Origin: Candidatus Peribacteraceae bacterium
Lineage (GTDB): Bacteria > Patescibacteriota > Gracilibacteria > Peribacterales > Peribacteraceae
NCBI GenBank assembly: GCA_028703445.1
Contig: JAQVMW010000012.1
Coordinates: forward strand, 1-40,594
DNA length: 40,594 bases
Reading direction: 5' to 3'
The translations under genes and the position numbers were made by a program. Below, piece by piece: positions 1,474 to 32,495 of this stretch; position 1 is the first letter of the stretch, and every line of letters begins with the position of its first letter. The notes under the pieces are model-generated. The model saw only the letters and a list, made by a program, of their open reading frames with translations. It made no database searches and was not told the origin of the DNA.

Positions 1474-3711
1474 ATGCCCAGACACCGTCGCACACTCAAG
1501 CGGCCCAGAAGCAGAAAACATGCGCCCGCGATCGAGATGAGTCCTGCAACGCGCAGACAGGTGAGCGGTGTCGTCCAATTCATGCTGGGCATGCTCATTC
1601 TGCTCTCGCTTCGCGAACAGGCCGGTTCCGCTGGCAGTGCCGTGCGCACCGTACTTACGTTCTTCTTCGGCAAGTGGAGCATCATCTTCCCCGTCGTCCT
1701 GATCGTCTCTGCACTCCTGCACTTCTTCACGAGTGAGGATCACTTCAAGACAAAACGGTCCGTGGGTCTGGTGCTCTGCCTCGTAACCTTTCTCGGACTC
1801 ATGCACATCGGCGCGCCCCTGCAGGATATTGCGAACAAAAAGGAGGAACTGGGCGGGGCCATCGGCTTCCTCGCCAGCGTGCCCTTCTTGCTCTTCTTCT
1901 CGCGGCCCGTGGGCTACACCGTCCTCGGAGCATTCTTCTTCATCGGCGTCGTTATCTCGTTCGAGCCCAATGTCGGGGCGATCTGGCAGTTCATCCGCGA
2001 CCTCACGGCCAAACGCGAAGAGCTGAAGCCACGCGCTCCCCGTGTCGTACGCACCGAGGAAGTGAAGAAGGAGAAAATCGAGGAAGAGGATCTCGTCGAA
2101 CAGGATCATGACGCACCTGAACTCAATATCGTCCGTCCGGCCTTCGCGCAAAAGGAGAACAAGAAAGCCCTCGCCAAGAAGATCGCCGCCGAGAAAAGCG
2201 AGAAGAACGTGAAAGCGAAGATCAAAGATATCCTGCAGATGAAAGATACGCGCTTCGAGGAGTGGACGTTTCCGGGATTGGAGCTCTTGGAAGACACGCA
2301 CAGCGAGCTCGCCATTGATGATGAAGAGCTGAAAATGCAGGCCAAGAAGATCGAAGAGAAGCTGGAGGAATTCGAAATCTCCGTGACCATGCGCGACGCC
2401 CACCCCGGTCCCACGGTCACGCAGTTCACGCTTTTGCCCGCCGAAGGCGTGAAGCTGAGCAAGATCGAGAGCCTTAAAGATGACCTTGCCCTCGCGCTCG
2501 CCGCGCCGAGCCTGCGCATTCAGGCACCCATCCCGGGCAAATCGCTCGTAGGCCTCGAGATGCCCAACAGCAAGCGCACCACCGTCCACCTGCGCGAGAT
2601 CCTCGAGAGCCCGGAATTCACCCAATCGACCTCGCAGCTCTCGCTCCCGCTCGGTCGCGATGTCGGCGGATTGGCCGTCGTGGCCGCCCTCAATGACATG
2701 CCGCACCTCCTGATCGCCGGTGCCACCGGTTCGGGCAAGTCCGTGTGCATGAATACGTTCCTGACGTCCCTCCTCTACCAGAATGCCCCGAACGAGCTCA
2801 AGTTCATCCTCATCGATCCCAAGCGCGTCGAGCTGACTCCCTACGACGGCATCCCGCACCTGCTGACGCCCGTGATCTCCGAATCCGAAAAGGCCCTGCA
2901 GGCGCTGCGCTGGGCCGTGGCAGAAATGGGCCGCCGTCTCCACCGCTTCTCCGACGCCGGCGCGCGCAATCTGGATGAGTACAACGAGAAACAGACGGAC
3001 GAGGCCTCTCTGCTGCCGCGCATCATCATCGTGGTGGACGAGCTGGCCGACCTCATGATGCGCCAGTACCGGCGCGATACCGAGACGATGATCGCCCGCA
3101 TCGCCCAGATGGCCCGCGCCGTGGGGATGCATCTCATCATCGCCACCCAACGTCCGAGCGTGGATGTCATCACCGGCCTCATCAAGGCCAATATTCCCAC
3201 GCGCATCGCCTTCCGCACGGTAAGCTCGGTGGATTCCCGCACTATTCTGGATGGTGTCGGTGCCGAGGATCTGCTGGGCAAAGGGGATATGCTCTACATG
3301 ACCGCCTCGACGCCGGATCCCGTGCGCATCCAGGGAATTTTCGTGGGGACGAAAGAGGTGGAGCGCGTAATCAACGCGGTCAAGATCGCCGGCGGCGGAC
3401 GCATCACCGAACAGATCGCCCTCGCCGAAGAAGACGAAGAGGGCGAGCAGGGAGAACAGAGCCTCTCGCAACCGTATGCGCAGATCGATCTCGATGCCGA
3501 TGACAACGGCGGCGATGACCTCTTCTTCGAGGCGGTGAAAGTGGTGCAGGAAACGGGCAAGGCCTCGGCCAGCCTGCTGCAGCGCCGTCTCTCGGTCGGG
3601 TATGCGCGCGCGGCCAAGCTCCTCGACATTATGGAACAGAAGGGCCTCATCGGCCCGGTGGAAGGCGCGAAGGCGCGGAGGGTCTACATCGAGAAAATGG
3701 CCACGCCCTAA
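1474..3711 (+). CDS. ftsK: DNA translocase FtsK/SpoIIIE
   Basis: FtsK pumps DNA through the division septum and helps resolve chromosome dimers. The 745-residue protein starts with a basic segment, then has about four hydrophobic membrane segments (roughly residues 30-190), a charged Lys/Glu linker, and the motor. The motor shows Walker A GATGSGKS, Walker B IIIVVDELADL, and the FtsK signature ATQRPSVDVITG. The C-terminus (ASLLQRRLSVGYARAAKLLD) is the winged-helix gamma domain that reads KOPS-like sites. An open frame continues upstream to 1372, but it would run through the repeat, whereas the ATG at 1474 sits 6 nt after a TACAAT. The stop codon overlaps the start of rdgB by one base, so translation is probably coupled. 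Confidence 0.96.
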   Translation: MPRHRRTLKRPRSRKHAPAIEMSPATRRQVSGVVQFMLGMLILLSLREQAGSAGSAVRTVLTFFFGKWSIIFPVVLIVSALLHFFTSEDHFKTKRSVGLVLCLVTFLGLMHIGAPLQDIANKKEELGGAIGFLASVPFLLFFSRPVGYTVLGAFFFIGVVISFEPNVGAIWQFIRDLTAKREELKPRAPRVVRTEEVKKEKIEEEDLVEQDHDAPELNIVRPAFAQKENKKALAKKIAAEKSEKNVKAKIKDILQMKDTRFEEWTFPGLELLEDTHSELAIDDEELKMQAKKIEEKLEEFEISVTMRDAHPGPTVTQFTLLPAEGVKLSKIESLKDDLALALAAPSLRIQAPIPGKSLVGLEMPNSKRTTVHLREILESPEFTQSTSQLSLPLGRDVGGLAVVAALNDMPHLLIAGATGSGKSVCMNTFLTSLLYQNAPNELKFILIDPKRVELTPYDGIPHLLTPVISESEKALQALRWAVAEMGRRLHRFSDAGARNLDEYNEKQTDEASLLPRIIIVVDELADLMMRQYRRDTETMIARIAQMARAVGMHLIIATQRPSVDVITGLIKANIPTRIAFRTVSSVDSRTILDGVGAEDLLGKGDMLYMTASTPDPVRIQGIFVGTKEVERVINAVKIAGGGRITEQIALAEEDEEGEQGEQSLSQPYAQIDLDADDNGGDDLFFEAVKVVQETGKASASLLQRRLSVGYARAAKLLDIMEQKGLIGPVEGAKARRVYIEKMATP

Positions 3712-13747: not shown

Positions 13748-13785
13748 GGCCGCTTCGCTCATGGATGAGTGGAGCGGCCAGTTTT
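13748..13785 (+). terminator. rho-independent terminator
   Basis: GGCCGCT (from 13748) pairs with AGCGGCC (to 13779), with an inner CTCAT/ATGAG stem, followed by AGTTTT. It lies 27 nt after the 13157-13720 gene. On the other strand the same hairpin starts 4 nt after the rsmF stop codon and may serve both genes. Confidence 0.75.
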
Positions 13786-15394
13786 AAGTGCTTCCGAGTT
13801 TGACCACCCACCGCGGCAGGCGATTGAGGAGCGTCCCCTCCTTCGCCAGCCCGAGCCCGAGGGAAATCCCACGGAACCGGAGGATCGTATCTCCGCGAAG
13901 TGAAGCATCGACGGGAATATCTTTGCCGGAAAGCAGTGCATCGAGCTCAACCTGCGAAAGCTCCATCACGCCGAAAGTAGCCAGATGTCCTCGCAGCGAT
14001 GCAAGCTCGTTCGTGATGCGGAAACGCCCGTCGGGCAAAATCTTCGCGAAGGGAATACCCATGGCATACTCCGTGACCGGAAGTGGGAATCCGTATGCTT
14101 CCTCGCCCGCAAGAAGAAGCTGCTGTCCTTTCTCGATCAGGCATTCCCCGGGCAGGAGAAAATTCGCACCGAACTGTTCCATGAAGAGCTTGGAAACCGC
14201 CTCGGTCTTCTTGCGGCCGAAGGGCAGAGCGATCCGCTGATACATCTCGAGCGGTTCCACCTCCCGTGTGGATTTCACTTTCTTGAGGACCGCACAGAAG
14301 AACCCCTCGGTGTCGTAGGTTTGGGGCCAGAGACGAAGAAATGGAAAGTTGAAAGTTGAAAGTTGAAAGTGATTTGTATTCCGCAACCACTGTTGCACAC
14401 GCATAGAATCTTCGATTGCACTTTCCATTTTCCACCCTCCACTTTTCACTCCGTCGTCTCTCGGGTCGATGACCTGCAGACAATCACCAAACTTCTCCAG
14501 TATCGAGAGGACGACGGCTTCATTCTCCTCAGGCGTCAGGGTGCAGGTGGAATAGACGATGCGCCCTCCCACCTTCGCCGCATGGATGGCAGCCTCGAGA
14601 AGTTGATACTGCAGACGCGCCGCCTTCTCGATCGAATCCGTGGAACAGTACTGAAGTGCCGTGGGATCTTTGCGCGCTGTTCCCTGCGCGGTGCAGGGCG
14701 CATCACACACCACGCGATCGAAGCGTTCCGTGAGGTGCTTGCTGAACCACTGGCCGACCTTGCGCGTGATGACGACACTCGTCGCACCCGTGCGCTGGAG
14801 AGCGTCATTGAGAATACGGAGCCTTTTCTCCTGCATGTCGTTGGCGATGACGATGCCTTGCCTCACCCCCCAACCCCCTCTCCATCCCACCCACGATTCC
14901 CGCATGGAGAGGGGGCGCACTTTCTCCTGCTCATAGGCTTGTTCAGTCACAAAAGGAACTCCCCCCCTCCCGTTGGCATCTGGTACGGAGGGGAGAGGGA
15001 GGGGTGAGGCAGCAGCAGCGATTCGTGCTGCGATCTGCGTGGTCTTGCTCCCGGGCGCCGCGCACAGGTCCAGAATCGCCTCGCCGGATTTGGGATCAAG
15101 AAGTGCAACCGGCAGCATGCTGGCGGCCTCCTGCATGTAGAAGTGCCCAAGCAGGTGCCGGATATCGCGACCGAGGGCGACAGAGAGATCGGTGCGGTCG
15201 ATGAAGAATCCCTCCGCCCACCACGGAACCGGCGTCAGGGACCATCCTCTTTCCTTTGCCCACTCTTTGAAATCAGCAATGGAGCACTTGAGCGTGTTCA
15301 CGCGCACGGATTTGCGCAGCGGTCTCTCACTCGCGGCTTTGAGAGCGGCAAGATCGGTGAACGGCGCGTAGCGATCGAATGGATGAACGGACAT
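13784..15394 (-). CDS. RsmF/NOL1-NOP2-family rRNA (cytosine-5) methyltransferase with repeat insertions
   Basis: The 536-residue protein is an S-adenosylmethionine-dependent RNA m5C methyltransferase. The motifs are SVRVNTLK at the N-terminus, motif I LDLCAAPGSKTTQIA (residues 109-123), motif IV DAPCTAQGT, and the catalytic-Cys motif YSTCTLTPEEN. A C-terminal PUA-like region (about residues 400-536, with TEYAMGIPF and ELASLRGHLATFG) fits the RsmF (YebU) branch, which modifies 16S rRNA. Two foreign-looking segments are in frame. Residues about 129-178 are encoded by a 149-bp palindromic repeat, and about 316-352 by a GAAAGTT-type repeat. Both fall in expected surface loops, so activity may survive. 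TAGAAT lies exactly 6 nt before the ATG. Confidence 0.9.
   Translation of the reverse strand: MSVHPFDRYAPFTDLAALKAASERPLRKSVRVNTLKCSIADFKEWAKERGWSLTPVPWWAEGFFIDRTDLSVALGRDIRHLLGHFYMQEAASMLPVALLDPKSGEAILDLCAAPGSKTTQIAARIAAAASPLPLPSVPDANGRGGVPFVTEQAYEQEKVRPLSMRESWVGWRGGWGVRQGIVIANDMQEKRLRILNDALQRTGATSVVITRKVGQWFSKHLTERFDRVVCDAPCTAQGTARKDPTALQYCSTDSIEKAARLQYQLLEAAIHAAKVGGRIVYSTCTLTPEENEAVVLSILEKFGDCLQVIDPRDDGVKSGGWKMESAIEDSMRVQQWLRNTNHFQLSTFNFPFLRLWPQTYDTEGFFCAVLKKVKSTREVEPLEMYQRIALPFGRKKTEAVSKLFMEQFGANFLLPGECLIEKGQQLLLAGEEAYGFPLPVTEYAMGIPFAKILPDGRFRITNELASLRGHLATFGVMELSQVELDALLSGKDIPVDASLRGDTILRFRGISLGLGLAKEGTLLNRLPRWVVKLGST
14339..14444. repeat. palindromic heptamer repeat inside the rsmF-like gene
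   Basis: The left arm has three tandem GTTGAAA-type heptamers preceded by GAAATGGAAAGTT. The right arm has ACTTTCCATTTTC, its near-perfect reverse complement, about 65 nt away. Read on the minus strand it encodes the low-complexity FQLSTFNFPF and KMESAIED segments without breaking the frame. Confidence 0.65.
14861..15009. repeat. 149-bp dispersed palindromic element, copy A, inside the rsmF-like gene
   Basis: The ends CCTCACCCC and GGGGTGAGG are inverted repeats. Inner blocks CCCTCTCCATCCC, CATGGAGAGGGGG and GTTGGC occur in the same order as in copy B at 22027-22172, while the centre has diverged. Copy A keeps the methyltransferase frame open and adds about 50 residues just after motif I. 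Confidence 0.8.
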
Positions 15395-16905: not shown

Positions 16906-16990
16906 CCATCCCCTGATCCTTTCCTCCACAAGAGGAAGGGGAAACATGAACATTCCCCCTCTCTCGTGGAGAGGGGGCTAGGGGGAGAGG
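16906..16990. repeat. C/G-rich palindromic repeat abutting leuS stop, copy C
   Basis: A perfect CCCCCTCTC/GAGAGGGGG hairpin (16955-16977) is preceded by a TTTCCTC/GAGGAA hairpin. The region ends about 8 nt from the leuS stop codon and lies between convergent genes. Its arms resemble copies A and B, but the full element is not present. It may work as a 3'-end hairpin for both genes. Confidence 0.6.
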
Positions 16991-20532: not shown

Positions 20533-20640
20533 CGGATGCAATCCGTTGCCCTGAACGATGCCTCAACTCCCGACTGTTGCCATCATCCCTCGGCTACGCT
20601 CGGGACCTTCGGTCGGCCTTCCAACTCCCGCTTCCATCCT

Positions 20641-22008
20641 ATGACAAAGCTCCCCACTGTCGCGATCATTGGCCGCCCGAACACGGGCAAATCCACGCTC
20701 TTCAACCGGCTCGCCGGCGAGCGCAAGGCAATAGAAAGTGAGGTGGCAGGCACCACCCGCGACCACGTGGCTCACCGCATGGAAACGAAGACAGTGGATT
20801 TTCTGCTGCTCGACACCGGCGGGATGGGTGGAGGAACCCTTCGACGCGGCTCAGGGCAGGCTGACGACAAGGGCTTCGAGCAGGACGTGCACCGGCAATC
20901 GCTGCTCGCGCTTGAGAACGCCGACCTCATCCTCTTTACCATCAACAGCCGCGAGGAATTGACGAAGAGCGACTACACCATCATCGATTTACTGCGTAAA
21001 AACCGCCGCCGCCACGTCCCCGTCATCCTCGTGCCGACGAAATGCGACAATCCCGAAACGATCGAAGACAAACTGGTGGAATATCTGTCGATCGGGATTT
21101 CAGACATCGTCATTCCCGTCAGCGCACCGCACGCCATCGGCACGGAAGAGCTGCTCGACGCGATCACGAAGGAATTGAAAAAGCTCCACTTCAAGAAGCA
21201 GGAAAAGGCGAAAACATCGGACCCGCCCAAAGTCGCCGTCATCGGCAAGCCGAACGTGGGCAAGAGCTCGCTCATCAACGCCTTCATGTCCGATCCCCAA
21301 CGATCCGTCTCGCCCATGCTCGTCTCGGATATTCCCGGCACCACGCGGGACGCCGTCGATACGATCATCCGCTTCAATGAGCAGGAATTCCTCTTCATCG
21401 ACACGGCCGGCATCCGGCGCCGTACCCATGTGGAGGAAGGCATCGAACACTATGCGGTGCTGCGGAGCATTCAGGCTCTGGAACAGTGCGACGTGGCGCT
21501 GCTCGTACTCTCGGCTCTGGAGCCCGTGAGCCACCAGGACCAACGGCTGGCCGCACTGGCCATCGAAGCGGGTAAGGGCATGATTCTGCTCCTCAACAAA
21601 ATCGACACGCTCAAACCCGAGGCTCGCGCAGTGAGGATCGCCGAAGTGGAGCTCTCCCTCTCGTTCTGCCGGTTCGCCCCCCTGCTCCCCTGCTCCGCTG
21701 TTACCCGCGACGGGCTCTTGAAAGTTTTCCCCCTGATTGCGCAAGTACAGCAGAATCGTCTGCGCCGCATCCCGACGAAGGAACTCCACCGCTGGTTCAC
21801 GGATGCCGTCTTCGGTCAGCCCCTCAAAGTGCTCTCGAAAACCAAGCACTTAACGCAGGCCGACGACGTGCCGCCGACGTTCGTGCTCTTCGTCAAGCAT
21901 CCCCGGAATATCCGTCCGAGCGAACTTAAGTTCCTCGAAAACAGGCTCCGCTCGATGTTCGACTTCACGGGAACGCCCGTGCGGTGGATCACGAAGGGAG
22001 GCCAGTGA
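20641..22008 (+). CDS. der: ribosome-assembly GTPase Der (EngA)
   Basis: Der has two tandem GTPase domains and a KH-like tail, and is needed for 50S subunit maturation. Domain 1 shows GRPNTGKST, TTRD and DTGG. Its guanine-specificity motif reads TKCD rather than NKxD. Domain 2 shows GKPNVGKSS, TTRD, DTAG and NKID. The C-terminal KH-like domain ends with RWITKGGQ. After the first DTGG there is a foreign-looking stretch (GGGTLRRGSGQADDKG) of roughly nine extra residues, from a repeat-like DNA segment at 20836-20867. The start is fixed by the first conserved beta strand (TVAIIGRPN). Confidence 0.96.
   Translation: MTKLPTVAIIGRPNTGKSTLFNRLAGERKAIESEVAGTTRDHVAHRMETKTVDFLLLDTGGMGGGTLRRGSGQADDKGFEQDVHRQSLLALENADLILFTINSREELTKSDYTIIDLLRKNRRRHVPVILVPTKCDNPETIEDKLVEYLSIGISDIVIPVSAPHAIGTEELLDAITKELKKLHFKKQEKAKTSDPPKVAVIGKPNVGKSSLINAFMSDPQRSVSPMLVSDIPGTTRDAVDTIIRFNEQEFLFIDTAGIRRRTHVEEGIEHYAVLRSIQALEQCDVALLVLSALEPVSHQDQRLAALAIEAGKGMILLLNKIDTLKPEARAVRIAEVELSLSFCRFAPLLPCSAVTRDGLLKVFPLIAQVQQNRLRRIPTKELHRWFTDAVFGQPLKVLSKTKHLTQADDVPPTFVLFVKHPRNIRPSELKFLENRLRSMFDFTGTPVRWITKGGQ
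20836..20867 (+). repeat. in-frame repeat-like insert in der
   Basis: The DNA CCTTCGACGCGGCTCAGGGC and the following AGGCTGACG resemble a short dispersed repeat of the CTTCGAC-GGCTCAGG type that I recall from many uncultured bacterial genomes. It sits in the loop after the G3 motif of domain 1 and keeps the frame. No second copy is obvious in this window. Confidence 0.45.
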
Positions 22009-22026: not shown

Positions 22027-22172
22027 CCTCACCCCCTATCCCCCTCTCCATCCCTGCGACGATCCTACATGGAGAGGGGGCATACTTTTTCATTGAAAAG
22101 AGTTCTGAAACAGAAAGAGTGCGCCCCTCTCCGGTTGGCGTTGGTCGGTGCGGAGAGGGGTTGGGGGTGAGG
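22027..22172. repeat. 146-bp dispersed palindromic element, copy B
   Basis: It starts CCTCACCCC and ends GGGGTGAGG, with internal CCCTCTCCATCCC, CATGGAGAGGGGG and GTTGGCGTTGGTCGG blocks matching copy A in order. It lies between convergent der and the LOG-like gene, 18 nt from each stop codon, so it may also form the 3' end of both mRNAs. Confidence 0.8.
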
Positions 22173-22190: not shown

Positions 22191-22835
22191 TCACCCCGAC
22201 TTTCTCTCCTGCAGGTGAGGCGGGGCTTCGCGATTGCCCTCTGAATGGTCGATCACGCGACCGTCTTCGTGAATAGGCAGCGGAAACGCGCGGATGACGA
22301 CCTCCAACTTATCGAGCAGTTTGACCGGATCGTCGTCGAACACCATGTTTGGCGGAATCGTACGCAGGCACAGCTTCGTGATGATTTCCTGGATCGCATT
22401 GCTGATGCCGCCGGTATTGGTGAGCACACCCATGGGCCGACCCTCGTCGTAGGCAATCGTGAACTCATTCAAGGTGCCAATGCCACCACTAATGAAGACG
22501 ACACCATCGCTGGAACGGATATTCACGACATCACGCTCCATGAATCCTTGCCCTGTGAAGATCATCATGTCGTTTTCGAGCGGCGAGTGGTACTCGTTCA
22601 CGTGCTCGTACTCCGAGAACGCCGGAGAGATCCCGAGCGTGAATGCCCCAGCTTCCTTGGCCCCCAAGAGCGCGTCGTGCGGGAGTCCCGGACAGGCACC
22701 GTTGATGAAGATGTACCCGCGCCTGCCGATTTCCTGCCCGAGTTTCTTCGCCATCGCGCGCGCATGAGGATCCGAAATCTGCGGCCCACTGGCCGAGCCC
22801 ATCACGCCGATCTTGAGCTTGTGTGCGGGAGTCAT
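22191..22835 (-). CDS. LOG/SLOG-family Rossmann protein
   Basis: The 214-residue protein has the N-terminal nucleotide-binding strand IGVMGSASGP, the conserved PGLPHDALLGAKEAG, and the family loop SGGIGTLNEFTIAYDEGRP. Such proteins include cytokinin-type nucleoside-monophosphate phosphoribohydrolases and molybdenum-cofactor carriers. The arrangement here is closest to the latter, annotated elsewhere as TIGR00725-like. The substrate cannot be decided. A longer frame starts at 22898, but that would place the perfect TGG-TATAAT box inside the gene; the ATG at 22835 is preferred, with a leader of about 45 nt. Confidence 0.85.
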   Translation of the reverse strand: MTPAHKLKIGVMGSASGPQISDPHARAMAKKLGQEIGRRGYIFINGACPGLPHDALLGAKEAGAFTLGISPAFSEYEHVNEYHSPLENDMMIFTGQGFMERDVVNIRSSDGVVFISGGIGTLNEFTIAYDEGRPMGVLTNTGGISNAIQEIITKLCLRTIPPNMVFDDDPVKLLDKLEVVIRAFPLPIHEDGRVIDHSEGNREAPPHLQERKSG

Positions 22836-22886
22836 CGAAGAACGAAAGTATGATATCGGTGTTTCTGTAGAAGTGGTACGAAGAAT

Positions 22887-22895
22887 ATTATACCA
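22887..22895 (-). promoter_or_regulatory. consensus extended -10 TGG-TATAAT
   Basis: On the minus strand TGG-TATAAT is a perfect extended -10 element for the LOG-like gene. The identical 9-mer precedes the TraG-like gene at 29575-29583. Confidence 0.65.
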
Positions 22896-22905
22896 CATTA
22901 TTTAG

Positions 22906-23048
22906 AAAGACATAAGCTATAAGCTTTAGGCCATAAGCAGATGCTTACAGCTTACGTCTTACGTCTTATGTCTTACGTCTTACGTCTTATGTCTTACGTC
23001 TTACGTCTTATGTCTTACGTCTTATGTCTTACGTCTTATGTCTTACAG
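22906..23048. repeat. palindrome with 13-copy heptamer array CTTAYGT
   Basis: From 22951 to 23041 there are thirteen consecutive 7-bp units, CTTACGT or CTTATGT, with a fourteenth variant CTTACAG. The C/T base follows the order CCTCCTCCTCTCT... with slight end variation, so the array may have grown by copying blocks of two or three units. The left arm (ACATAAGCTATAAGC) is an approximate reverse complement. The array ends at the mltG stop codon. Confidence 0.85.
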
Positions 23049-24053
23049 CTATTGCAAATACCGCCTCCGGTTCTCATTGTGCTCTTCATTCGTCGTTGCA
23101 TAGTGAATGATGCCTTTGCCGTCATGCAGGTAATACCAGTAGGGAGACTCCTGCGATTTGAGGGCAGCGAGAATGCTCGAAATGCCCGGACTCGCGATAG
23201 GTCCCGGTGGCAACCCCTTCACCTTCCGCGTGTTGTAGGGACTCTTTGTCTCCAGATCCGACTGCGTGATCGGCTCGGTGGGCTTTTCGAGGATATACCG
23301 AACACTGGCATCCACACCGAGGGGCATGCCAGCCTCGAGTCGCTTCCAGAGGATACCTGCAACAACCGGCCTCTCCACATCCGTGCGCGTTTCCGCTTCG
23401 ACGAGCGAAGCCATGGTAATGATTTCGTGAAGAGAGTGACCCGAGGCGGCGATCTCGTCCTTGTGTTCCTGAACCACGCGCGCGCGGAAGGTTCCGAGCA
23501 GGCGCTCGAGGAAAAACTTGGGCACAAACTCCGCTTCATTCACGAAGTAAGTTTCGGGGAAGAGATATCCCTCTAAGCGTCCGCCTCTCAGGGCAAGCCC
23601 CTTGGATGCAGCGGAAGGAAGAAAGTCGAACGTCGAGAAGTCGCAGCGCCTGAGACAGTCCAGGACTGCACCGGAATCCGCAAGCCCCTTGGATGCAATC
23701 AGCGCGTCAATATCCGTCACCGTCCATCCCTCCGGGATCGTGAGTGATATCTCCTCCGACTTGCCCAAGCGAAGAACGTTCGCAATCTCTTCAACGCTCA
23801 TGTTCGGCCGGAAAATGAACGTCCCCGCCTGCACGCCTGCCTCCGCACCATTGAGCTTCATATACAACTTGAAAGCGGGAAGCGAGCGGATGAGTCCCTT
23901 CTCATGCAACAGCGCTCCCACCTGCCCAACACTCATCCCCTGCGAAACCTTCACGCGAATCGCTCCCGTTCCACCGAATGGAGAGAGCTCATGCAGATAC
24001 CACGCGTACACGACAATGCAAAGGCCGATGACGAGGAGAATGAGCTTCTTCAT
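23049..24053 (-). CDS. mltG: endolytic murein transglycosylase MltG
   Basis: MltG cuts nascent peptidoglycan in the periplasm or outer face of the membrane and sets strand length. The 334-residue protein has one N-terminal membrane anchor (residues about 3-20), a LysM-like region (GMSVGQVGALLHEKG), and the YceG core. Key motifs are RLEGYLFPETY, the catalytic-Glu segment ASLVEAET, SPYNTRKVKGLPPGPIASPG, and the terminal EEHNENRRRYL. An 18-bp exact direct repeat (GCAAGCCCCTTGGATGCA) at about 23593 and 23680 encodes two SKGLA segments. ybaB lies 9 nt upstream on the same strand, so the two form an operon. Confidence 0.95.
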   Translation of the reverse strand: MKKLILLVIGLCIVVYAWYLHELSPFGGTGAIRVKVSQGMSVGQVGALLHEKGLIRSLPAFKLYMKLNGAEAGVQAGTFIFRPNMSVEEIANVLRLGKSEEISLTIPEGWTVTDIDALIASKGLADSGAVLDCLRRCDFSTFDFLPSAASKGLALRGGRLEGYLFPETYFVNEAEFVPKFFLERLLGTFRARVVQEHKDEIAASGHSLHEIITMASLVEAETRTDVERPVVAGILWKRLEAGMPLGVDASVRYILEKPTEPITQSDLETKSPYNTRKVKGLPPGPIASPGISSILAALKSQESPYWYYLHDGKGIIHYATTNEEHNENRRRYLQ

Positions 24054-29583: not shown

Positions 29584-29612
29584 GATAGCGGCATTTTCCG
29601 CTTAGCCCGAGG

Positions 29613-29714
29613 AATTGTTACATTGATAAATTGTTACATTGTTATTTTGTGCTGATCTGGCTTTCTCTTGCCAACAATGTAGCAAAATAGCAATTTAACA
29701 TTATAACCATTCAA
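29613..29714. repeat. AT-rich palindromic repeat (ATTGTTACATTG type), copy 1
   Basis: The left arm repeats ATTGTTACATTG-like units. The right arm (AACAATGTAGCAAAATAGC) is its approximate reverse complement. It fills the gap between the TraG-like promoter and the RlpA-like stop codon, which it touches. A related copy lies at 32368-32495. Confidence 0.65.
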
Positions 29715-30760
29715 CCATGCGTTGCGCACTCCCAAACGTCCATCTGCATCTCACGCACCCTGCCATCGACCGTTCCGACGCGGAAGACGAATGGACCCAT
29801 TGTGGACGGTGTCAGCGAGAACACCTCACCGGGATTCACCCAGTCTTCGATGCGCTCGACGGAACCATCCGGATACAGGACGGAACGCACGACGAATGGA
29901 CGGATGGAAGTCAGGGTCACCGGCTCACCGACGGACGACATGTTCGGCACGCCCCGATCGAAGCGCACGTCCCGCGTGATGCGCTTTTGGTAGCGACGCA
30001 GAGTACCATCGCACGCGTCGACGAGTGCGCTGTCCCCCAGCCGCTGAAACTTTGCCCGCGCGACGCCCTGACTGCGGGGGGCGATCCGCGTGAAGGCCTC
30101 GAGGCTCAAATCCATGTCGCGCCCATCCACGTACGGCCCGCGGTCATTGATGCGCACGATCACGCTCTGATCGTTTTCGGTATTCGTCACCTTCACGAGT
30201 GTATTGCAGGGAAACGTGCGGTGCGCCGCCGTGAGCGCGTTCATGTCGAACGGTTCCCCGCACGCCGTTCCCTTGCCTTGAAACTTCTCGGAATACAGGC
30301 TGACTTCGTGTTCCTCGGAAGCGAGCAGGGTATCGAGTGAAGCGGCCATGGCCAGCAGTGTGTCAGAGGATGACACAGGTACCGACAGATCCTGCGATGT
30401 ATGGATGAACGGGTACTGCTCAAGAAGCTCTGGCACAGCCTCGGGCGTCATCGCATCAATGTCCGTCACGTTGCGCGTGCGAAAGAGCCAGAGCACGGCA
30501 TCAGAGAAGTTGAGCGGCTCGTCAGGGTGGAATAGTTCGCCGTCTTCGAGAATACCGCGTGCTTTGGCATACGTGATCTGCTCGCTTCCGCGCTCCCCTT
30601 CCGGCACATCGGCGAAGGGTTGTTCACTGGTAGGATCCGGATCGCGACGGATACCCTCCCAGATCATCAAAAACCCGTCGCGGCGCGTGATGCCGCCGCC
30701 TTCACCCAAGACGGAAAGTGGCAAAAGACACAGCACGACAAACAACGCGAACCGGCGCAT
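29711..30760 (-). CDS. RlpA-like double-psi beta-barrel protein with SLH-like N-terminus
   Basis: The 349-residue secreted protein has a signal peptide (MRRFALFVVLCLLPLSVLG). A region resembling a single S-layer homology repeat follows (RRDGFLMIWEGIRR to FSDAVLWLFR). The RlpA/DPBB domain spans about residues 155-250: SLYSEKFQGKGTACGEPFDM, TAAHRTFPCNTLVKVTN, VRINDRGPYVDGRDMDLS. RlpA proteins cut or bind naked glycan strands at the septum. The rest is an unknown C-terminal beta-rich domain. An ATG five residues upstream (30775) is possible, but a TATTTT box just before it favours 30760. Confidence 0.82.
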   Translation of the reverse strand: MRRFALFVVLCLLPLSVLGEGGGITRRDGFLMIWEGIRRDPDPTSEQPFADVPEGERGSEQITYAKARGILEDGELFHPDEPLNFSDAVLWLFRTRNVTDIDAMTPEAVPELLEQYPFIHTSQDLSVPVSSSDTLLAMAASLDTLLASEEHEVSLYSEKFQGKGTACGEPFDMNALTAAHRTFPCNTLVKVTNTENDQSVIVRINDRGPYVDGRDMDLSLEAFTRIAPRSQGVARAKFQRLGDSALVDACDGTLRRYQKRITRDVRFDRGVPNMSSVGEPVTLTSIRPFVVRSVLYPDGSVERIEDWVNPGEVFSLTPSTMGPFVFRVGTVDGRVREMQMDVWECATHG

Positions 30761-30807
30761 GGGGACATGTTGCATGAGAAAATAGAGAAGTGCAATTGAC
30801 GCTCACG

Positions 30808-30910
30808 GTTAGGGATAGGGTTAGGGTTAGGATTAGGGTTAGGGTTAGGAACAGGGTCAGGAACAGGGTCAGGAATCACAAATAATCCCTAACCCTAGCC
30901 CTAAACCCTA
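30808..30910. repeat. telomere-like TTAGGG array with inverted CCCTAA arm
   Basis: From 30808 the plus strand carries GGGTTAGGG-type units with variants (GGGATAGGG, AGGATTAGGG), then AACAGGGTCAGG twice, then from 30886 the inverted CCCTAACCCTAGCCC arm. Five GGG runs could form a G-quadruplex, and the arms could form a long hairpin. The right arm begins exactly at the stop codon of the 3D-domain gene. Confidence 0.85.
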
Positions 30911-32311
30911 TAGTGCCCTCCAGCCTTCGCTGCGCACAAGTAAATAGGCCTCCTGCTGCTCTTCCGCGCGCAGGCTCTTGAGTGTCTGAGGACCCACTGT
31001 TCCAGCACCGCTCCCGCCCTCTGCGGCCACGAGTTGCCGGTCGATCTGGTACTGAAGCACGGCTTCCCTGGTCTGAAGACCGAAGTACCCGTTCACTTTT
31101 TCGGACGGAAAGTATCCGCGGTCGGCAAGCAGGCGCTGCAGGAGCGTCACGGATTGACCGCTGTCGCCTTCACTGAGGAACTGATCGAGATTCTTGCCCT
31201 TTTGATCGAGGAGCACTTCCACACGATGCAGAATCATCAGACGGTCGGCCAGATCCGCAACGAGCTTCTGGTTCCACTGTGTCTTGAGTTTGCCACGCGT
31301 GAGCGGCCCGATACGTCCTGCCCCCGGATCTTCGGCCGTCCCCACCAGCTGCTCGCTCTGCTGGAACTTGAGGATCGCTGCGGCCAGCGTGTCACTGTAG
31401 ACACCGTTTGTTCTGCCCTTGTAGTAGCCCAGAAACCGCATGGTTCGCTGCGCCGTCCGAATGACCGATGCCTTCGCACTTCTGTCCACATTCTTCGCAA
31501 CGGGCGGCGTGACATCCGCCCGACGGACCGCGGCCGCAAGGGTCGCGGCGGATCGTTCACTGAGATGATCCGAAGGTTCGGTCAGTCCGTAGGCAGCATT
31601 GAAGCGCGTCAGAGCATCCTGCGTTGCCACACCAAAGAGTCCGGTGGGAGCCTGATCGAAAAATCCGGTTTTGCCCAGCGAGCGCTGCAATGTTTCGACG
31701 GAAAGTCCGCGATCCCCCGCCTTCACCGAAACGGCAAGCAAATCCTGACCGCGCACGAGAAAAGGTTCGAGCCGGTTGAGGACAGCCGGAAAGCTCTCGA
31801 GTGAAAAACTCACTTTTGGCTGAAAACCGCCGACTTCGTACACCGTCCCGCGTACGCGCCGAACCCCAAAAGCGAGTGCCCGCGCCAGTCCCTCCTCGCC
31901 ATGGCCCACCCAGATATCGAGGCGATGCGCGCCGCCCTCAAGTTCCGTTATCGCCCCGCCACGGTCATGCACCGCAAAGCGCCCGATGCCGGGCAAGGCA
32001 ACGACGGTGCCGAACGCATAACTCGCCGGTGCCGCGATCATGCCGGGATACACCTCAGTGCCGTCGGCGCCGTTGGTGCCCTCGCCATTCAGAACTTTGT
32101 CGGCACGGTACCCGCCTTTGACGTAGCAACACTGTCCGGGCAACGGCGAGTAGTAGGCCGTGAGGATGAAGTCCTGCTCACGCGGAAGATCCTTGCTCAC
32201 CCCCGCCGCCATGACGGGCGCCACGAAGGCCAGCGCCGCGATGAGCACCTTGAGGTGCTTCGGCAGTCGTGCGACGCGCGTTCGGTAGAGCGGTGTTTGT
32301 TTGATGTGCAT
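30908..32311 (-). CDS. secreted 3D-domain protein with three peptidoglycan-binding domains
   Basis: This 467-residue protein has an N-terminal signal/anchor (VLIAALAFVAPVMAAG). A 3D-type domain follows: LTAYYSPLPGQ, YPGMIAAPASYAFGT, and AVHDRGGAI with HRLDIWVG, which supply the conserved aspartates. Three PG_binding_1 repeats then occur (SVETLQRSLGKTGFFD, IRTAQRTMRFLGYYKG, VTLLQRLLADRGYFPS). The 3D domain occurs in lytic transglycosylases such as MltA and in Gram-positive resuscitation proteins, so a peptidoglycan-remodelling role outside the membrane is likely. A perfect TATAAT lies 8 nt before the ATG, and GAGAAGAA between them could act as a weak Shine-Dalgarno. Confidence 0.88.
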   Translation of the reverse strand: MHIKQTPLYRTRVARLPKHLKVLIAALAFVAPVMAAGVSKDLPREQDFILTAYYSPLPGQCCYVKGGYRADKVLNGEGTNGADGTEVYPGMIAAPASYAFGTVVALPGIGRFAVHDRGGAITELEGGAHRLDIWVGHGEEGLARALAFGVRRVRGTVYEVGGFQPKVSFSLESFPAVLNRLEPFLVRGQDLLAVSVKAGDRGLSVETLQRSLGKTGFFDQAPTGLFGVATQDALTRFNAAYGLTEPSDHLSERSAATLAAAVRRADVTPPVAKNVDRSAKASVIRTAQRTMRFLGYYKGRTNGVYSDTLAAAILKFQQSEQLVGTAEDPGAGRIGPLTRGKLKTQWNQKLVADLADRLMILHRVEVLLDQKGKNLDQFLSEGDSGQSVTLLQRLLADRGYFPSEKVNGYFGLQTREAVLQYQIDRQLVAAEGGSGAGTVGPQTLKSLRAEEQQEAYLLVRSEGWRAL

Positions 32312-32348: not shown

Positions 32349-32367
32349 CTGATCGGAAGTGGCGAGA

Positions 32368-32495
32368 AATGGTTACATTGTTAAATTGTTAAATTGTTAT
32401 TTGCATTTAACATAACAAATTCCGCTTCACTAGAAGCAAAAACAATGAGCAATGTAGCCATGTAACAATTTAACCATTAAACAATTTGCCCATGG
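32368..32495. repeat. AT-rich palindromic repeat (AATTGTTA type), copy 2
   Basis: The left arm has three tandem AATTGTTA-like octamers after GGTTACATTG. The right arm (AACAATGAGCAATGTAGCC, then ATGTAACAATTTAACC) is the approximate reverse complement. It is related to the repeat at 29613-29714 and lies about 20 nt from the stop codon of the M24 peptidase gene. Confidence 0.65.

Follow-up and report, generated by a model that had tools for sequence, protein, structure and literature searches.

Most of the known palindromic elements lying in frame within genes come from Rickettsia and Wolbachia, and their mode of movement has been an open question. The Rickettsia and Wolbachia palindromic elements (RPEs and WPEs) are 100–150-bp palindromic repeats that occur in preexisting ORFs, keep the frame and fall in solvent-exposed parts of the protein, possibly at hotspots (PMC3767692). 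The CGTC repeats, which include the RPEs of R. conorii, have no known dedicated transposase (PMC3733652). In the REP/BIME systems with RAYT (REPtrons, GTAG family), short hairpins exist beside a longer form with the enzyme gene; some copies are intragenic, many of them in replication and repair genes (PMC3733652). The palindromic amphipathic repeat coding elements (PARCELs) are described as intragenic tandem repeats in diverse microbes (PMC2996958).

The element described here was found in a 40,594-nucleotide stretch of DNA from a Candidatus Peribacteraceae bacterium (contig JAQVMW010000012.1; hereafter the window). Like RPE/WPE, it is a multicopy palindromic repeat (146–154 bp) that sits in frame in preexisting genes, at tolerant loops. 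The initial annotation had drawn the parallel with RPEs, which holds for the behaviour and not for family membership: the host belongs to another bacterial group, and the copies end in TGCCTCAC/GTGAGGCA, with the CGTC tetranucleotide absent from the element end. Unlike the RPE/CGTC repeats, the element also exists in a nuclease-bearing long form. In having short hairpin units and a longer form with an enzyme gene between hairpins, it resembles the REPtrons, whereas the enzyme is a DUF559 protein (PD-(D/E)XK, Vsr-like) and not a HUH tyrosine transposase. As in MITEs and other transposon-derived elements, the termini are common to a longer enzyme-gene-bearing element, in this case DUF559 units of ~ 0.5 kb. 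PARCELs share with our element the palindromic, translated repeats, but the latter occurs as single dispersed copies and has the nuclease-bearing form. We place the element, as a non-autonomous palindrome that codes for protein in the manner of RPEs, in a family associated with DUF559.

Copies, ends and folding of the element

The initial annotation placed a 149-bp palindromic element at 14861–15009, in frame within an rRNA methyltransferase gene, and a second, intergenic copy with the same termini at 22027–22172 (copies A and B, respectively). Both are indeed bounded by CCTCACCCC and GGGGTGAGG, and they align over their full length with 74% identity. The terminal inverted repeats of copy A occupy 14861–14869 (CCTCACCCC, plus strand) and 15001–15009 (minus strand; GGGGTGAGG on the plus strand). 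Between them lie two plus-strand hairpins, assigned from the DNA fold and the sequence: a perfect one with a 12-bp stem (CCCCCTCTCCAT...ATGGAGAGGGGG, 14874–14915) and an imperfect one (14960–14999). Copy B, 146 nt long, has outer terminal inverted repeats and two internal hairpins as well. It lies, as proposed, between genes, with an EngA/Der-type GTPase on the left (20536–22008, plus strand) and a SLOG-family ORF on the right (22191–22898, minus strand). A short, intergenic single-hairpin relative (CCCCCTCTCTCGTGGAGAGGGGGCTAGGGGGAGAGG) was located at 16950–16990 by its inverted-repeat matches with both copies. Folded as single-stranded DNA, the two copies outperformed every shuffle (z of -3.1 for copy A and -6.2 for copy B). 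The 9-mer CCTCACCCC is present in four copies in the window against 0.35 expected, a number reached in 0/100 shuffles.

The location of copy A stood, whereas its extent needed a small correction. Since YTG...CAR flanks most genomic copies, TG[~149]CA describes the element best. Because TG/CA flanks most copies and removal of 153 nt restores the loop length of the relatives, we set the mobile unit of copy A at 14859–15011 (TG...CA, 153 nt, 51 codons). No target-site duplication was visible at the copies listed; if TG/CA is taken as part of the element, RsmF has gained 153 nt net.

A scan against named genomes puts the organism beside Candidatus Peribacter / Peribacteraceae. In its genome (1.37 Mb, 98.75% complete) there are at least 11 full copies besides several partial ones, most of them with 71–84% identity to copy A or copy B, and the element thus represents a genuine dispersed family. 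Its terminal inverted repeats are TGCCTCACCCC/GGGGTGAGGCA, and the internal hairpins usually number two. With a strict end pattern, we counted 23 elements in the genome, five of them intragenic. Close relatives of copy B were sought on plasmids with no match, and a search of the window against Rfam returned one tRNA and nothing else. A joined-flank search for empty intergenic sites in the genus showed that the element is absent in several relatives; the strong divergence of the spacers, which abound in other repeats, kept these junctions from being fixed to the base. The genomes compared are mostly metagenome-assembled, and assembly may break at repeats; the matches of the G002 UvrC gene fall on two contigs, which come together around the insert.

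Other repeats are present in the window. A 7-mer array (CTTACGT/CTTATGT) at 22930–23055 adjoins and overlaps a predicted ORF start. Arrays of an 8-mer (GTTACATT/GTTAAATT) at 29609–29650 and 32364–32493, with inverted copies too, flank the ORFs at 29711–32311, and telomere-like GGTTAG/GGTCAG hexamers lie between two ORFs at 30807–30872.

The RsmF insert and other in-frame copies

Copy A lies within an ORF of 536 aa (13784–15394, minus strand) that stays open across it. The profiles PF01189, PF17125, PF13636 and NCBIfam RsmF identify the product as an RsmF-type 16S rRNA m5C methyltransferase, and the AlphaFold model has its best match in 2FRX (E. coli YebU/RsmF, E 2.4e-41). The Pfam and NCBIfam matches are interrupted at residues ~ 126 and ~ 179; together with the open frame and the full genomic copies, this bears out the dispersed, in-frame element that had been proposed. 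Alignment to the relatives having RsmF covers residues ~ 3–126 and ~ 179–535, and the 52-residue stretch 127–178 is missing from them. Four RsmFs of the same genus (72–88% identity) are without the insert, which is missing even at 83–88% identity. They read TQIAARLQGRGVVIAND, and the gene minus TG[149]CA gives TQIAARIAAAGIVIAND, of equal length in our own reading of the alignment; the net gain is therefore 153 nt, or 51 codons. The absence from the genes of relatives, the other genomic copies, the restored loop length and the low pLDDT are our basis for assigning residues ~ 128–179 to copy A. Copy A is a recent insertion that entered RsmF after the genome had split from its sister species.

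In the AlphaFold model, the insert is located between helix 116–127 and strand 181–185 (loop αA–β2). Residues 131–175 have pLDDT < 50, and the remainder is mostly > 90; the insert is predicted to be a disordered loop, with the rest of the RsmF fold intact. In a Rossmann-type sheet, the αA–β2 turn and the SAM pocket are on opposite edges.

The opposite history, in which the 50-residue loop is ancestral and was lost in the relatives, is hardly credible. The only point in its favour is that other lineages have enlarged loops too, and their sequences are unrelated. Against it, relatives from the same genus have a short loop (in G004, a different repeat is present there), as do other phyla, and the insert is one member of a repeat family in this genome. 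A ~ 50-residue loop shared with distant homologues, which the initial annotation had named as the observation that would speak against insertion, was not found: in gammaproteobacteria, Calditrichota and archaea, the RsmF loop is just as short, and the long one is thus not ancestral.

The RsmF loop is an insertion hotspot that takes several unrelated elements. It is enlarged in 14 of the 52 Peribacteria RsmFs of our tree, and many of these inserts are palindromic, falling into two families or more (a CTCACCCC/CCCTCTCC type and a CATGACA type); inserts of the GCCTCCGC type are also palindromic-looking. Sister species carry unrelated inserts, and G004, from the same genus, has a 7-mer repeat in place of copy A. 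On a tree built with the insert masked, the loop-state label needs 11 changes, of which the well-supported branches force at least 9. The RsmF loops at L237, L228 and L260 contain in-frame inserts of the CATGACA type or of the likely palindromic GCCTCCGC type.

A second hypervariable loop of RsmF (14337–14450, residues ~ 315–352) is built from short repeats, namely TTTCAAC here, telomere-like CCCTAA (NPNPNP...) in same-genus species and TTATCAA in G010. Different repeat classes occupy one in-frame position in this loop.

The expected further in-gene copies were also found. MutY (G000:C23:~ 3097–3231) contains the long element in frame; since the length of this insert does not divide evenly by three, the frame must have been kept or restored through another indel. 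Shorter related hairpins lie in frame in UvrC (C14:33871), MurL (C8:94804) and a GT4 glycosyltransferase (C6:44667) of the same genome. G004 UvrC has the hairpin too, G006 UvrC has a different, palindromic-looking insert, and the insert is absent in G010 and G020. In relatives, too, the MutY and UvrC loops accommodate insertions of varying length.

We considered a frame-directed element whose length is always a multiple of three and rejected it, since the lengths of 146–154 span all residues modulo 3. Insertion is thus not directed to the frame, and the in-frame state is most simply explained by survivorship under selection.

DUF559 genes between terminal hairpins

The longer relatives of the element, which bear a DUF559 gene, were missed in the initial annotation. 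In the same bacterial family, DUF559 (PF04480) genes are often bracketed by the termini and hairpins of the element, in the layout CCTCACCCC..CCCCTCTCC-loop-GGAGAGGGG, DUF559 gene, CCCCTCTCC-loop-GGAGAGGGG..GGGGTGAGG. In G000, G003 and G016, the sequences flanking DUF559 genes match both ends of the 150-bp element (about 1–55 and 98–154). A match to CTCACCCCN{2,8}CCTCTCC lies at most 300 bp from 16/45 DUF559 genes, against 0.43 expected (P 4e-20). The pair CCTCTCC and GGAGAGG was present in both 200-bp flanks of 17/61 DUF559 genes, compared to 0/74 control genes (RsmF, MutY and Y1 transposase) and 0/300 random positions. Two-sided hairpins accompany only 27 of the 61 DUF559 genes of the family.

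The resulting units of ~ 0.5 kb carry the gene of a DUF559 protein, a Vsr-like PD-(D/E)XK endonuclease, between terminal hairpins of the copy A type. Two loci of G023 hold a 524-bp unit, 90% identical between them, in unrelated flanks; the identity begins at CCTCACCCCC and stops at GGGGGTGAGGGGC, with its limits at the palindromes. The same genome has a third unit, ~ 77% identical, and two-copy units of 463–533 bp are present in G008, G016 and G034. The G023 copies at L311 and L340 share an internal TGA stop, which suggests, on sequence grounds, that a broken copy may have been multiplied in trans. The gene in the units was assigned to PF04480 (E 8e-32), and among solved structures the closest is that of an endonuclease-like protein, 3HRL. 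Seventy DUF559 copies share a conserved DF.C / iE.DG..H motif, whose pattern fits a PD-(D/E)XK nuclease. In family and in this nuclease-type motif, the protein agrees with the described DUF559/Vsr-like endonucleases (PF04480; 3HRL; Caulobacter VsrA). The ~ 0.5-kb unit is likely the parent element of the short palindromes.

Hairpins beside small genes are often terminators. The palindromes flanking DUF559 could then be ordinary transcription terminators and the RsmF insert an unrelated low-complexity expansion, but we consider this very improbable. Hairpins occur upstream of DUF559 genes as well, entire ~ 0.5-kb units recur at new loci and break off sharply at the palindromes, and the RsmF insert can be aligned from end to end with copies elsewhere in the genome.

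A RAYT/Y1 (IS200/IS605-like) transposase might also be the mobiliser, in which case the elements would be REPs or TIRtrons. They are palindromic and short, with no target duplication visible, and the genome has five Y1_Tnp matches; GGGGWSAS terminal inverted repeats have been reported for some RAYT-like genes (PMC3733652). However, terminal motifs were found within ~ 1 kb in 0/20 Y1_Tnp regions of G000 and its relatives, and the CCTCTCC/GGAGAGG pair was in both flanks of 0/21 Y1 genes. The copies lack the GTAG end. By this feature, and by Y1 genes not being flanked by the palindromes, they do not belong to the REPtrons. We rejected RAYT/Y1 mobilisation as improbable, given that no Y1_Tnp gene in G000 or its relatives is flanked by the terminal motifs.

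The association of DUF559 with hairpins is widespread, not universal. C-rich/G-rich hairpins tend to adjoin plasmid DUF559 genes from Deinococcus, Azospirillum, Shinella, Sphingomonas, Qipengyuania, Sinorhizobium and Synechocystis. Across nine loci on seven plasmid records, together with one more MAG, stems of at least 9 were present in 11/20 windows adjacent to DUF559 and 8/100 more distant windows (P 6e-6). Around the DUF559 genes in seven genomes from other families of the same class, hairpins were not found on both sides.

According to PMC12907096, the Caulobacter DUF559 protein VsrA is needed for a DNA-damage response and was proposed to cause double-strand breaks, which makes a DNA-cutting role for DUF559 plausible. 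Caulobacter is both a listed CGTC host (PMC3733652) and an encoder of a DUF559 protein (PMC12907096). Searches of the open-access literature for DUF559 with palindromes, Peregrinibacteria palindromic repeats, REP with Vsr and PF04480 gave nothing relevant. Nor did open-access titles and abstracts yield an account of DUF559 or PF04480 in palindrome-bounded mobile units.

Proposed mobilisation and its implications

We propose that copy A is a non-autonomous palindromic mobile element, that the longer DUF559-bearing units are its relatives and that DUF559 would be the mobilising enzyme; we think this account is probably correct, with some reserve. The DUF559 nuclease may nick or cut at hairpins or cruciforms, or at a YTG|CAR-like target, and host repair would then copy the element into the break. 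For short hairpin-hairpin elements like copy A, movement would be in trans, as it is for MITEs or REPs. The in-frame copies may represent the survivors of selection, retained in tolerant loops of needed genes.

Vsr-type nucleases act in mismatch repair, so DUF559 could instead be a passenger. In such a scenario, the palindromes are moved otherwise, by an unknown transposase or by template-switching in host replication, and DUF559 genes were captured between two palindromes and then spread along with these. Many DUF559 genes are indeed without two flanking palindromes, and several unrelated repeat families share the same RsmF and UvrC loops, which suggests permissive sites over the target of one enzyme. 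Nevertheless, the frequency of DUF559 genes near termini (16/45, with 0.43 expected) argues against capture. Moreover, many independent DUF559 lineages, including those of Deinococcus, Azospirillum, Sphingomonas and Sinorhizobium plasmids, are hairpin-flanked, for which a single capture is no explanation. We regard the passenger scenario as unlikely, though deserving of serious attention.

Mobilisation by DUF559 may extend beyond this family. We suggest, tentatively and with more doubt than conviction, that DUF559 is the mobiliser of a widespread, unrecognised class of palindrome-bounded elements in several phyla, whose non-autonomous hairpins disperse through genomes and turn into new protein segments, and that its enzyme class is perhaps the missing partner of orphan palindromes, the CGTC REPs and RPEs among them.

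A bacterium of the candidate phyla, unrelated to Rickettsia and Wolbachia, now shows the behaviour known from them. Conserved genes are affected, time and again at the same loops, and a candidate enzyme is present in the longer form. What moves protein-coding palindromes can thereby be examined in a single small family of nucleases. The independent insertions into RsmF, MutY and UvrC also constitute a natural series for the tolerance of proteins to new segments.
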